Positions 4,641-49,129 of a stretch of DNA of 64,000 nt are shown in pieces (position 1 is the stretch's first letter; each line of letters starts with the position of its first letter). The notes beneath the pieces were generated by a model. It ran no database searches. It saw only the letters and a program-made list of their open reading frames with translations, and was not told the DNA's origin. The translations under genes and the position numbers were made by a program. The DNA is taken from positions 372,001 through 436,000 of the forward strand of contig NZ_WOSV01000002.1 in assembly GCF_011516655.1 (NCBI RefSeq). The letters are read 5' to 3'. Source of the DNA: Acetobacter thailandicus (GTDB taxonomy: Bacteria; Pseudomonadota; Alphaproteobacteria; Acetobacterales; Acetobacteraceae).

Positions 4641-5234
4641 ATGAATATTCATGTTTCCGGTAAACAGGTTACTCTTTCTGATGCACTAAAACACAGGGTT
4701 AATACCCACCTCAACACACTGACCGGCCGCTATTTTGATAAAGCGTTCGATGCTAAAGTTACTTTCAGTAAAATACGCTCGTTTTTTACGTGCGATATTA
4801 ACGTCCATGCAGGACGTGGCGGTATTATCCTTCGTGGTGAAGGTGAAGGTGCTGACGCGAACGTCGCCTTTGATGATGCTGCTGAACATATTGCCAAACG
4901 ACTGCGCCGCCATCACCAGCGTATAACCTCGCATACGCGTGCGGATAAGACTGAACAGCCGCCTGAAACAGGCCGCTCGTACATCCTCGATGCTGAAACC
5001 TCATTTAACGAAAGTAAGGATATCACCCCGCCACCGGAGGAAGCCTCCTTTCCGGTCATCATTGCTGAGCAGGCAACGGACATCCCTTTTCTGAGCGTAA
5101 GCGAAGCTGTTATGCGCCTTGACCTCGCCGGCTCAACACTCCTTCTGTTTCGTAACAGTAAAAATCAGGAAATTAATGTTATCTTCAGGCGCTCTGACGG
5201 TAATATTGGCTGGATTGATACAGGGCCAGCCTGA
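4641..5234 (+). CDS. hpf: Ribosome hibernation promoting factor, long form
   Basis: It binds the 30S decoding region and dimerises ribosomes into inactive 100S particles in stationary phase. The N-terminal RaiA/HPF domain (about 1-100) begins MNIHVSGKQVTLSDALKHRV and includes the basic segment AKRLRRHHQR. A variable linker (about 105-145) leads to the C-terminal dimerisation domain (about 147-197, FLSVSEAVMRLDLAGSTLLL). The 197-residue length is that of long HPF. An AAGGA ribosome site lies eight bases upstream of the ATG. In many alphaproteobacteria this gene is followed by ptsN; here it ends at a hairpin facing the DUF1150/hsp20 pair. Confidence 0.93.
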   Translation: MNIHVSGKQVTLSDALKHRVNTHLNTLTGRYFDKAFDAKVTFSKIRSFFTCDINVHAGRGGIILRGEGEGADANVAFDDAAEHIAKRLRRHHQRITSHTRADKTEQPPETGRSYILDAETSFNESKDITPPPEEASFPVIIAEQATDIPFLSVSEAVMRLDLAGSTLLLFRNSKNQEINVIFRRSDGNIGWIDTGPA

Positions 5235-5255
5235 TTTTTTCCTTTAAAAACGACA

Positions 5256-5288
5256 AAGGCCAGTGGCGTATCTTATACCACTGGCCTT
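5256..5288. terminator. Bidirectional hairpin between hpf and the DUF1150 gene
   Basis: A perfect 11-bp inverted repeat, AAGGCCAGTGG (5256-5266) and CCACTGGCCTT (5278-5288), with an 11-nt loop. It lies between convergent genes. T-rich sequence follows on the minus strand, but the plus-strand T tract is poor. Confidence 0.7.
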
Positions 5289-5311
5289 AACCGGATGTAT
5301 TCTGGCATTCT

Positions 5312-5578
5312 TTACTGCAGCCCTGCTGTAACCATGTCGTTTTTCGAAATAATTCTCGAGGCGGCCTCAATATCATCAACGACTGAGAGCAACGCACCAT
5401 CTGCCGCATGAATAGCCCAGGCTGCATGTCCGTCTGCCGTTACAGAAGGACGCACATAAGCAACATTTGTTAACCCCATAATCAGAAACTGATGCTCTGA
5501 TAAGTCCTGAGTATTCAGCAGCATAGCTTGCTGATCCGGTGCCAGAACAATCTTTCCGTTATGGGTTGTGACCTTCAT
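5312..5578 (-). CDS. DUF1150 family protein
   Basis: A small cytoplasmic protein of 88 residues and unknown biochemical role. It carries the DUF1150 core (VAYVRPSVTADGHAAWAIHA, then DGALLSVVDD). DUF1150 genes sit next to small heat-shock protein genes across alphaproteobacteria, and that arrangement is kept here, with hsp20 directly upstream and a 46-nt gap. The start chosen is the ATG at 5578, because GGAG is suitably placed before it; an ATG four codons upstream has no ribosome site. A role with Hsp20 in proteostasis is inferred from this pairing only. Confidence 0.82.
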   Translation of the reverse strand: MKVTTHNGKIVLAPDQQAMLLNTQDLSEHQFLIMGLTNVAYVRPSVTADGHAAWAIHAADGALLSVVDDIEAASRIISKNDMVTAGLQ

Positions 5579-46544: not shown

Positions 46545-48086
46545 TCAGGCATCTTCTCCCATTCGGGTCTGATCAACAAATTCCTCCGTTTTCTCATCCA
46601 GCGAACGGGACTTTCTGCCCCCTGGTCCGTGCACGTAAAGATCTTTACGATCAACTTTATCAACCACCTCTGGCTGAACAGGCATCAGGTAGCGCGGCTT
46701 ACGCATATGATCAGCAAGCTGAAGCTTCGGATTAAAGACGGAATTGAACTTCCACAGCATTTTAACAAAATTGGTCTGCCCTTTCATCAGCAGACGGCCG
46801 GCAATACCTGCCGTGTCTTTGAGCGCCTGCCAGCCCATATGCTTGGTGTTAAGCACCTGCTGTGTTTTGACCAGCTCCTCATAAAACTCGGGCAAAGGCA
46901 GTTTAGTTGGCAATACAGCATGCTGAATATCAAACAGGCGATAGTCGCGGGTAATAAGGCGCCGGGATTCTTTGTGCCAGATTTCTGTTCCCGGATAAGG
47001 CGTTGTGACAGAAATATTCACAATTTCAGGAATTTCGAGACACCACTGACGCACAGCCTCAAAACGACTTCTGTCCCATGACGGGTCAGCAATAATATTA
47101 ATAGCCACGATCAGCCCCAGAGAACGGGCATAGTCCAGAGCCTCGAAATTTTTGTCCAGTGAGACACGCTTACGAAACTGTTTCAGGCCTTCTTCATCAA
47201 CGGCTTCCATACCAATAAAGATGTAGGAAAGACCGATCTCGCTCCAGACCTTAAAAACTTCTTTATTACGCAGCAGAACATCAGCCCGCGTTTCAAGATA
47301 ATATTCTTTTTTAATCCCGCGCTTCTTAATTTCATTAGCAATGGCCATGCCATGCTCTTCATGCACAAACGCAACGTCATCGACAATAAAGATACCCGGC
47401 TCTTTAATATCCTCAAGCTCGTCAGCAATCGTCTGCGGGCTGGCTGTGCGGTACGAACGCCCGTAAAATGTCCAGGCAGAACAAAAAGTACAATCCCACG
47501 GGCAGCCACGGGCAAATTCAATAGAGGCAGCAGGATCGAGCGTGCCGATAAAATATTTATTACGGTGCCTTAACAGGTCCCGGGCAGGGCGGATATCATC
47601 AAGGGATTCCACAAAAACCGGTGGTGGCCCTTCACCATCAGGCGTAATCACACCCGGAACAGTCAGCAGGTCCTGTCCTTTTTCTATCGCGCTGAGCAGC
47701 AGGCCGACAGTTGCATCGCCCTCACCTTTGAGAATGCAGTTTACCGTGCCTTCTGAGAGGGAGAGGATATCCTGAGCGATGAAAGAGACCGAATGTCCGC
47801 CTATAAACTGAAACACTCCGGGAAAGCGCAGTCGGGTCGCACGGCACAGATCTATGATCTCGGGCACATTCGCCAGGTAATTACCCGAAAAACAAATAAC
47901 ATCAGGTTTGAAATGACTGACCAGCTTCCAGTAATCGTCATGCGTTTCAACCTGAAGATCAATCAGCTGCACATCATGTCCGGCATTACGTGCAGCGGCA
48001 GCGACCAGTTCCAGACCCAGAGGCTCAAGCCTGAGAAACACTTTTGTATACATCAGTGCACTCGGGTGTACTGCCAGAACTTTCAT
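46545..48086 (-). CDS. hpnR: Hopanoid C-3 methylase (radical SAM, B12-binding)
   Basis: It methylates hopanoids at C-3 of ring A. The N-terminal cobalamin-binding-type domain (about 1-150) starts KVLAVHPSALMYTKVFLRLE. The radical SAM domain has the iron-sulfur triad in RGCPWDCTFCSAWTFYGRSY, and the C-terminal region is of HpnR type (ADHMRKPRYLMPVQP). The start MKVLAVHPSA at 48086 is preferred; an ATG six codons earlier lacks a ribosome site. Length is about 513. HpnR is known from acetic acid bacteria and methanotrophs, so it is a good taxonomic marker. No squalene-hopene cyclase or other hpn gene is adjacent. A 460-bp structured spacer precedes it. Confidence 0.88.
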   Translation of the reverse strand: MKVLAVHPSALMYTKVFLRLEPLGLELVAAAARNAGHDVQLIDLQVETHDDYWKLVSHFKPDVICFSGNYLANVPEIIDLCRATRLRFPGVFQFIGGHSVSFIAQDILSLSEGTVNCILKGEGDATVGLLLSAIEKGQDLLTVPGVITPDGEGPPPVFVESLDDIRPARDLLRHRNKYFIGTLDPAASIEFARGCPWDCTFCSAWTFYGRSYRTASPQTIADELEDIKEPGIFIVDDVAFVHEEHGMAIANEIKKRGIKKEYYLETRADVLLRNKEVFKVWSEIGLSYIFIGMEAVDEEGLKQFRKRVSLDKNFEALDYARSLGLIVAINIIADPSWDRSRFEAVRQWCLEIPEIVNISVTTPYPGTEIWHKESRRLITRDYRLFDIQHAVLPTKLPLPEFYEELVKTQQVLNTKHMGWQALKDTAGIAGRLLMKGQTNFVKMLWKFNSVFNPKLQLADHMRKPRYLMPVQPEVVDKVDRKDLYVHGPGGRKSRSLDEKTEEFVDQTRMGEDA

Positions 48087-48194
48087 ACCATTTTTTCCCG
48101 TCATCAAAGATCATGCTGACCGCAGAGCTACTGGCGATCATTCAGTGAAATAATTACTATACACGGCATGACGAATACCGCCCGGTAATTTGCC

Positions 48195-48271
48195 GGTATT
48201 TATTATAATACCAGCATTACAGCACAAAAGACTATCTTTTCAGAGCAAAACATTTTGCTCCGGCAATGCTG
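48195..48271. other. Candidate structured RNA/leader with a three-way junction
   Basis: In the 460-bp spacer between ndk and hpnR, CAGCATT (48212-48218) pairs perfectly with AATGCTG (48265-48271). This encloses two perfect hairpins: AAAAGA/TCTTTT with a 3-nt loop (48226-48240), and GAGCAAAA/TTTTGCTC (48243-48260). A further hairpin GGTATT/AATACC (48195-48212) abuts it. On the minus strand it would lie in the hpnR leader. The rest of the spacer (48108-48194 and 48272-48520) shows no gene. Function is inferred from geometry only. Confidence 0.35.
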
Positions 48272-48520
48272 TGGAACCGGGGTTAAGATATCGGGATAAA
48301 TGATAAAAACAATCCACCACAGATCAGAACAGACCTGCGCAGTCGTTCATGCTCACCCTATATATTTTTTGTTATACGCGGAGGAGAATCTGATTTTTGC
48401 AATGCAAACCCATATAAAAACAGGTTAATCTGCCAGATATAAAAATAATCGCACCCGGTTAAAAACCATGGACACGTAACTGATCAGTAATCACATTATA
48501 GTGTTATAAAAATTTTATCA

Positions 48521-48559
48521 TGTTACAGGCCAGAGTATTTTCTGCCCCGGCCTGTAACA
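48521..48559 (-). terminator. Terminator of ndk
   Basis: A perfect 11-bp repeat, TGTTACAGGCC (48521-48531) and GGCCTGTAACA (48549-48559), with inner CAGA/TCTG pairing, starting 11 bp after the ndk stop; a T-rich run follows on the minus strand. Confidence 0.75.
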
Positions 48560-48570
48560 GTCAGCAGAAA

Positions 48571-48993
48571 TCAGGGAAGGATTTCTGTTTCAGCAAAGAA
48601 GAAACGAATTTCGTTTGCTGCGTTTTCTGCGCTGTCAGAACCATGTACTGAGTTTGCTTCAATGCTTTCAGCAAAACGTGCACGAATGGTGTGTGCTTCA
48701 GCTTTTTTCGGGTCTGTTGCGCCCATAACGTCGCGGTTTTTTGCAACTGCGTTCTCGCCTTCGAGCACCTGCAGAACAACCGGACCAGAGATCATGAAGT
48801 CAACGAGGTCTTTGTAGAAAGGACGCTCTTTGTGAACAGCGTAGAAAGCACCAGCCTGAGCAGGTGTCAGCTGCACGCGTTTCTGAGCAACGATTTTCAG
48901 ACCTGCTTCTTCAAAAACAGCGTTGATGTTGCCTGTCAGGTTACGACGTGTTGCATCTGGTTTAATAATGGACAGAGTGCGTTCTGTTGCCAT
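48571..48993 (-). CDS. ndk: Nucleoside diphosphate kinase
   Basis: It equilibrates nucleoside di- and triphosphates through a phosphohistidine. The catalytic His117 is in [25 protein letters not shown] at the N terminus and GATDPKKA are intact. The length of 140 is standard. It is a single-gene unit with its own terminator, divergent from the ABC-F gene. Confidence 0.97.
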
Positions 48994-49129
48994 GATATAA
49001 TGACTCCCTGTTATATACAGCCCCGTATAATACGAGGCCTGTCAGCGTGTTCCTCTAGAACATATTCCGGCAGGCTGGTAGGTCTTTCGCTTCATTGTTC
49101 TTATTTGCATCCTTAACGAGAGTATCCCG

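Follow-up and report, generated by a model that had tools for sequence, protein, structure and literature searches.

In a 2.8-Mb Acetobacter genome, ndk and hpnR are separated by a spacer (48108-48570) containing a compact, strongly folding stretch, which raises the question of whether this element acts as RNA in the control of hpnR or is a feature of the DNA only. All positions refer to the 64 kb of sequence analysed, here called the window. HpnR is, by family assignment, a cobalamin-binding radical-SAM methylase; 3-methylhopanoids serve as molecular fossils, and our literature search found no paper on the control of hpnR. The spacer is free of genes, as the initial annotation had stated: no listed open reading frame of at least 60 aa lies inside it, and the one frame that intrudes does so by a four-codon overhang on the plus strand. 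Element and hpnR share the minus strand with no gene in between. The longest hpnR frame opens with TTG at 48107, although alignment of relatives indicates that the real start is probably the ATG at 48086, about 80 nt from the end of the element. The order ndk-hpnR is kept in 40 of the spacer rows extracted from relatives (some genomes occur in both collections, thus the number of species is smaller), and no ndk match is present in the stretch fetched at other hpnR loci, e.g. in Gluconobacter and A. fallax. The hairpin that ndk has at its 3' end (Table 1), which the terminator scan omits because its loop is longer than the scan permits, would by its position be terminator-like for that gene.

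Table 1. Features of the ndk-hpnR region, with positions in the window
Feature	Positions	Strand	Basis
hpnR, hopanoid C-3 methylase	46545-48107	-	TIGR04367, 897.5 bits (cut-off 650)
TATAGT, best-placed -10-like hexamer for hpnR	48156-48161	-	Inferred from spacing in relatives
Whole structured element, including weak basal helix P0	48173-48292	-	Folds of 193 nt and of the element; z -5.32, 1/4000 shuffles
P0, weak basal helix, 6 pairs (2 G-U)	48287-48292 with 48174-48179	-	Predicted fold
Element core, closed by P1	48181-48281	-	MFE -41.8 kcal/mol, z -6.48, 0/4000 shuffles; inverted repeat
P1, CCCGGU with ACCGGG	48276-48281 with 48181-48186	-	Predicted fold
Arm A, P2 around two hairpins	48219-48272	-	Predicted fold
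P2, 7 pairs	48266-48272 with 48219-48225	-	Predicted fold
Hairpin H1, 9 pairs	48241-48262	-	Predicted fold; core is an 18-bp perfect palindrome (48243-48260)
Hairpin H2, 6 pairs, 3-nt loop	48226-48240	-	Inverted repeat and predicted fold
Arm B, hairpin H3, 10 pairs	48191-48216	-	Inverted repeat and predicted fold
Segment predicted to pair with 48091-48100, around the weak Shine-Dalgarno-like GACGGGA	48287-48296	-	Fold of transcripts starting upstream; weak
Hairpin at ndk 3' end, 11-bp arms	48521-48559	-	Inverted repeat; z -5.80 for 48521-48640
ndk, nucleoside-diphosphate kinase	48571-48993	-	NF001908, 204.6 bits (cut-off 155)

The predicted fold is a branched structure of about 100 nt, in which P1 would close a multiloop bearing arms A and B, and the actual three-way junction would be that of P2, H1 and H2 within arm A. 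The junction had been drawn differently, with a perfect 7-bp outer stem (48212-48218 with 48265-48271) enclosing two perfect hairpins and a third abutting. The two hairpins are indeed perfect (arms 48243-48250/48253-48260 and 48226-48231/48235-48240) and the 7-bp segments are perfect complements, but these are predicted not to pair as an outer stem, 48212-48216 pairing within H3 instead; a fold with that stem reaches -18.3 kcal/mol compared to a minimum of -41.8 kcal/mol, and its pair probability is 0.0. The third hairpin also exists (arms 48191-48200/48207-48216, one of the ten pairs being G-U on the minus strand), but it overlaps the supposed outer stem rather than merely abutting it, while the closing helix P1 had been missed. 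The base pairing is real, and stronger than was first recognized.

Dinucleotide shuffling places the free energy of the core well below that of shuffled sequence, as expected of conserved RNAs of the riboswitch type: the minus strand of 48181-48281 (z -6.48) and the plus strand (-34.0 kcal/mol, z -5.02) were each equalled by 0 of 4000 shuffles, and with P0 included (48173-48292) z is -5.32 on the minus and -3.95 on the plus strand, each equalled by a single shuffle in 4000. The proposal that the element is more ordered than its surroundings was borne out by a scan of the window in 3194 segments of 120 nt (both strands, 40-nt step), in which 48161-48280 on the minus strand ranked second with z -6.31, the ranks being approximate as 20 shuffles were used per segment and 300 for the top 40 only. 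First was 5241-5360 on the plus strand (z -6.67), a hairpin between open frames ending at 5234 (+) and 5312 (-) that by position is probably a two-way terminator, and third was 48521-48640 on the minus strand (z -5.80) at the 3' end of ndk; both look like terminators at gene ends. It is very unlikely that the element is a chance product, i.e. that a quickly diverging, AT-rich spacer just happens to contain sequence that folds strongly. Such an origin would suit an element that was picked by eye from 64 kb and shows no conservation, but not one that none of 4000 shuffles could equal and that is outscored among the 3194 segments only by a hairpin between converging genes. The two strands differ in their pairing, the fold of 48173-48292 having five G-U and 39 Watson-Crick pairs on the minus strand and one and 34, respectively, on the plus strand. 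This asymmetry favours an RNA on the hpnR strand, which is modest evidence because a minimum-energy fold picks its pairs for the strand supplied; a structured minus-strand RNA is nevertheless compatible with the sequence.

The paired segments, whose conservation in relatives was to be expected of a regulatory RNA according to the initial annotation, were not found by a DNA search of the genus or by RNA-model searches of genus, family and class. The spacer DNA has no match in 48 other Acetobacter genomes. An RNA model built from this single sequence, which is insensitive and was run with strict filters, gave only one weak match of 58 nt (E 0.075) in the same 48 genomes, none at E 0.1 in 298 other genomes of the family and none at E 0.01 in 384 others of the class (the window's own genome adds one to each set, giving 299 and 385 for family and class, and some genomes are in more than one set). 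Run without filters on 20 loci of relatives, it returned 14 matches, the best with E 1.1, and no convincing homologue. Homologues with compensatory changes, the mark of a conserved structured RNA, were thus not found in the genomes searched. Comparison with Rfam, suggested at the same time, gave no match at gathering score anywhere in the window, and the best result of a permissive search of 48000-48700 was the animal element U1A_PIE (RF00460; 21.1 bits against 50, E 0.11). The spacer DNA matches no phage and an exact 22-nt piece of it no viral contig, and its one match to plasmids, of 28 nt, is a chance match (E 0.4).

Folding of this strength was not seen close to hpnR in the relatives scanned. 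Across 28 of their spacers (13 near-duplicate or kin rows, including a second copy of the window's own, were omitted), the 120-nt stretches that begin at most 200 nt from hpnR reached z -4.1 at best (L020, L029, L033), and the same scan gave z -7.7 and -5.5 for the window's own spacer, that of Acetobacter thailandicus (40 shuffles each). Farther upstream several relatives reach z -5 to -9, mostly at the ndk hairpin; beyond that hairpin L014 reaches -6.1 at -270 and L015 -5.1 at -308. As far as we searched, only this Acetobacter lineage has the fold. In the hpnR tree the window falls within a fully supported clade of 27 rows, on a long end branch (0.22) and weakly beside A. orientalis (87/46), with no close sister among the rows.

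Two candidate homologues were considered and rejected. In a metagenome-assembled genome (MAG) from sheep abomasum (L036, identical to L059), an unfiltered model match of 105 nt (1362-1466) lies just before hpnR, with E 1.5 over 88 kb and E 0.39 over four loci, and folds to a possible three-way junction (z -3.23, 1/200 shuffles); the hairpin resembling one of the window's is the second there and the first in the window, and 32 of 400 shuffles were as similar. For A. farinalis (L023), the best of 30 spacers in local similarity, 4 of 400 shuffles did as well, which is unconvincing because it is about what 30 tests allow. The A. farinalis spacer carries about 100 nt of additional, species-specific sequence (1348-1447), which includes an inverted repeat, lies between its -10-like hexamer and hpnR and was found in one of 49 Acetobacter genomes.

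What most of the relatives do share is a sequence signature upstream of hpnR. With up to two mismatches, GCATGGGWGRTG is present in 37 of the 40 rows; counted from the hpnR match it stands between -104 and -139, except in A. farinalis, where it is at -224. The rows without it come from two MAGs of ruminant origin, L036 (the rejected candidate above) and one that is represented twice (L037 and L060). In 22 of the 26 rows examined further the best -10-like hexamer lies 47-51 nt after the start of GCATGGGWGRTG, bearing in mind that it was picked as the best in a range of 29 positions and that the rows are related, and in those 22 rows it is 64-86 nt from the hpnR match, except for 176 nt in A. 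farinalis. GCATGGGWGRTG and the hexamer are a likely activator site and promoter for hpnR, shared by most of the Acetobacter spacers that we examined. This conserved promoter signature is a by-product of our comparison, and a firmer one than any role for the fold. GCATGGGWGRTG does not look like the mark of a wide regulon: there are 48 exact sites in 10 genomes, and of the 30 fetched five precede hpnR and 22 of the remaining 25 fall within open frames at least 100 codons long.

GCATGGGWGRTG is absent from the window's spacer (48108-48570), and the neighbouring signals are changed. There are six -10-like hexamers, including TATAGT at 48161, TATAAT at 48207 and TATAAT at 48500. The first is 66 nt away from codon 5 of the long hpnR frame, on its upstream side, and is the only one at the distance seen in relatives, with a poor -35 hexamer (two of six matches); the second lies inside the element and the third far upstream of it. 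Scanning 48000-49100 by consensus detected no sigma-70-like promoter on the minus strand. A study of transcription starts in the related Gluconobacter oxydans reports that its promoter consensus is lax and that 43% of its 5' UTRs measure 100-300 nt (PMC5756330), therefore neither a weak -35 hexamer nor a long leader would be odd in the window. The Shine-Dalgarno sequence is AAAGGA in most relatives; the aligned site in the window is GAAAAA, directly preceded by GACGGGA, and the putative ribosome-binding site of hpnR (within 48084-48104) is on this alignment diverged from that of relatives. Together, the absence of GCATGGGWGRTG and the changed hexamers and Shine-Dalgarno sequence argue that the whole presumptive regulatory region of hpnR is remodelled in this lineage, which agrees with the gain of a new leader and equally with insertion or decay of DNA.

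The TATAAT at 48207 falls in the loop region of H3 (48207-48202, minus strand), and the palindromes could also be read as DNA operators, with 48243-48260 and H3 as sites for a dimeric regulator around a promoter. In favour of this, the -10 hexamer is perfect and has a perfect 18-bp palindrome 36 bp upstream of it; however, the best -35 match for that hexamer is two of six, neither palindrome has a second copy in the genome at 0 or 1 mismatch, the four other places at two mismatches include three that we looked at, all overlapping open frames, and P1 and P2 would be left unexplained. We regard operators as quite improbable. A regulon built on these palindromes was rejected, as none was found genome-wide.

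A lineage-specific insertion or rearrangement of palindromic DNA, located within the hpnR promoter region or upstream of it and with no RNA function, is a serious if doubtful possibility. It would have come about as the ancestral promoter signature was lost, the good fold resulting merely from inverted repeats. This would account for an element found in no relative searched, for both strands folding beyond chance, and for the window lacking a sequence kept by 37 of 40 relative rows (the same genome may be counted from two collections). A. farinalis offers a parallel in its own extra 100 nt or so, which lie at the corresponding place, contain an inverted repeat and are likewise single copy. The hexamer placed as in relatives, TATAGT, also sits downstream of the element, and a promoter there would leave the element upstream of the hpnR transcript, outside its 5' UTR. 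On the other hand, the element consists of four nested, branched helices instead of terminal inverted repeats, its G-U pairs are asymmetric between strands, no target-site duplication is seen by eye, and it is single copy in the genome. The last point sets it apart from families of miniature transposable elements (MITE) or REP sequences, which it resembles in being short, in a spacer, composed of inverted repeats and absent from relatives, but which form one long hairpin rather than a branched structure and occur in several genomic copies; both the DNA search (others 14-21 nt, E >1) and the RNA model found one copy only.

We tentatively prefer, at somewhat less than even confidence and only weakly over an untranscribed palindromic insertion, that the element serves hpnR as a structured RNA leader, one peculiar to this Acetobacter lineage. 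In its favour are the multi-branch fold, as opposed to one long palindrome, and the better folding and greater number of G-U pairs on the minus strand, as expected if RNA on that strand matters. Against it are the lack of a homologue in the genomes searched, the analogy with relatives that puts the hpnR promoter downstream of the element, the lack of a consensus promoter on the minus strand of 48000-49100, the folding of the plus strand beyond chance, and the weakness of the masking described below. Transcription from a promoter in the AT-rich segment at 48300-48500 would make the element part of the hpnR mRNA, where the compact domain might shield the 5' end from nucleases. It could also lower hpnR translation by bringing 48287-48296 close to the ribosome-binding site, a weak one (48091-48097); P0, which shares 48287-48290, would compete with this masking, and its formation might relieve repression, a switch that, like any ligand for it, is speculative. 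In predicted folds GACGGGA is unpaired with probability 0.17 for transcripts starting at 48350 or farther upstream, compared to 0.64 for those starting at 48293 or later. Masking by 48287-48296 is a suggestion only, because 19 of 300 shuffled 5' flanks equalled it, as did 2 of the 24 relatives for which 280 nt upstream were included.

The same strand could alternatively carry a separate small RNA gene, whose transcript would begin in the AT-rich spacer and either end or be processed ahead of hpnR. The fold is compact and self-contained with closed ends, and the spacer has room for a promoter of its own (TATAAT at 48500). We nevertheless consider this unlikely, as the terminator scan found no terminator after the element on the minus strand, and neither an Rfam family nor a homologue in the genomes searched was found.

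As a leader, the element would resemble structured 5' leaders and orphan riboswitch candidates in having several helices on the sense strand before a metabolic gene and perhaps a helix that competes close to the ribosome-binding site; it differs in being known from DNA alone, with neither a phylogenetic distribution nor a known ligand. HpnR binds both cobalamin and S-adenosylmethionine (SAM), so a leader sensing either would make sense, but neither riboswitch class appeared in the Rfam search of the window at gathering score or in the permissive search of 48000-48700. That a new RNA leader unlike known classes, perhaps sensing one of these cofactors, replaced an ancestral protein-controlled promoter strikes us as highly improbable. 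The element shares with intrinsic terminators its stable, G+C-rich helices close to where the preceding gene ends; unlike them, it is not followed by a U-run on the minus strand (the scan found no site there, and no T-run follows P1), and it is therefore not an intrinsic terminator for ndk read-through, ndk having its own hairpin. Integron attC sites carry a conserved R box and core-site heptamers at their ends, and neither was seen by eye.

The fold is real and unusual and its role unproven, with neither conservation nor a family. If it is a transcribed leader, it adds an RNA layer to the control of hpnR and provides a case of the recent origin of a structured leader; if it is only an inserted palindrome, the fold matters little. 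Inside the element, 48182-48196 on the plus strand reads as a terminator-like stem followed by a T-rich run, at a place where no plus-strand gene ends.
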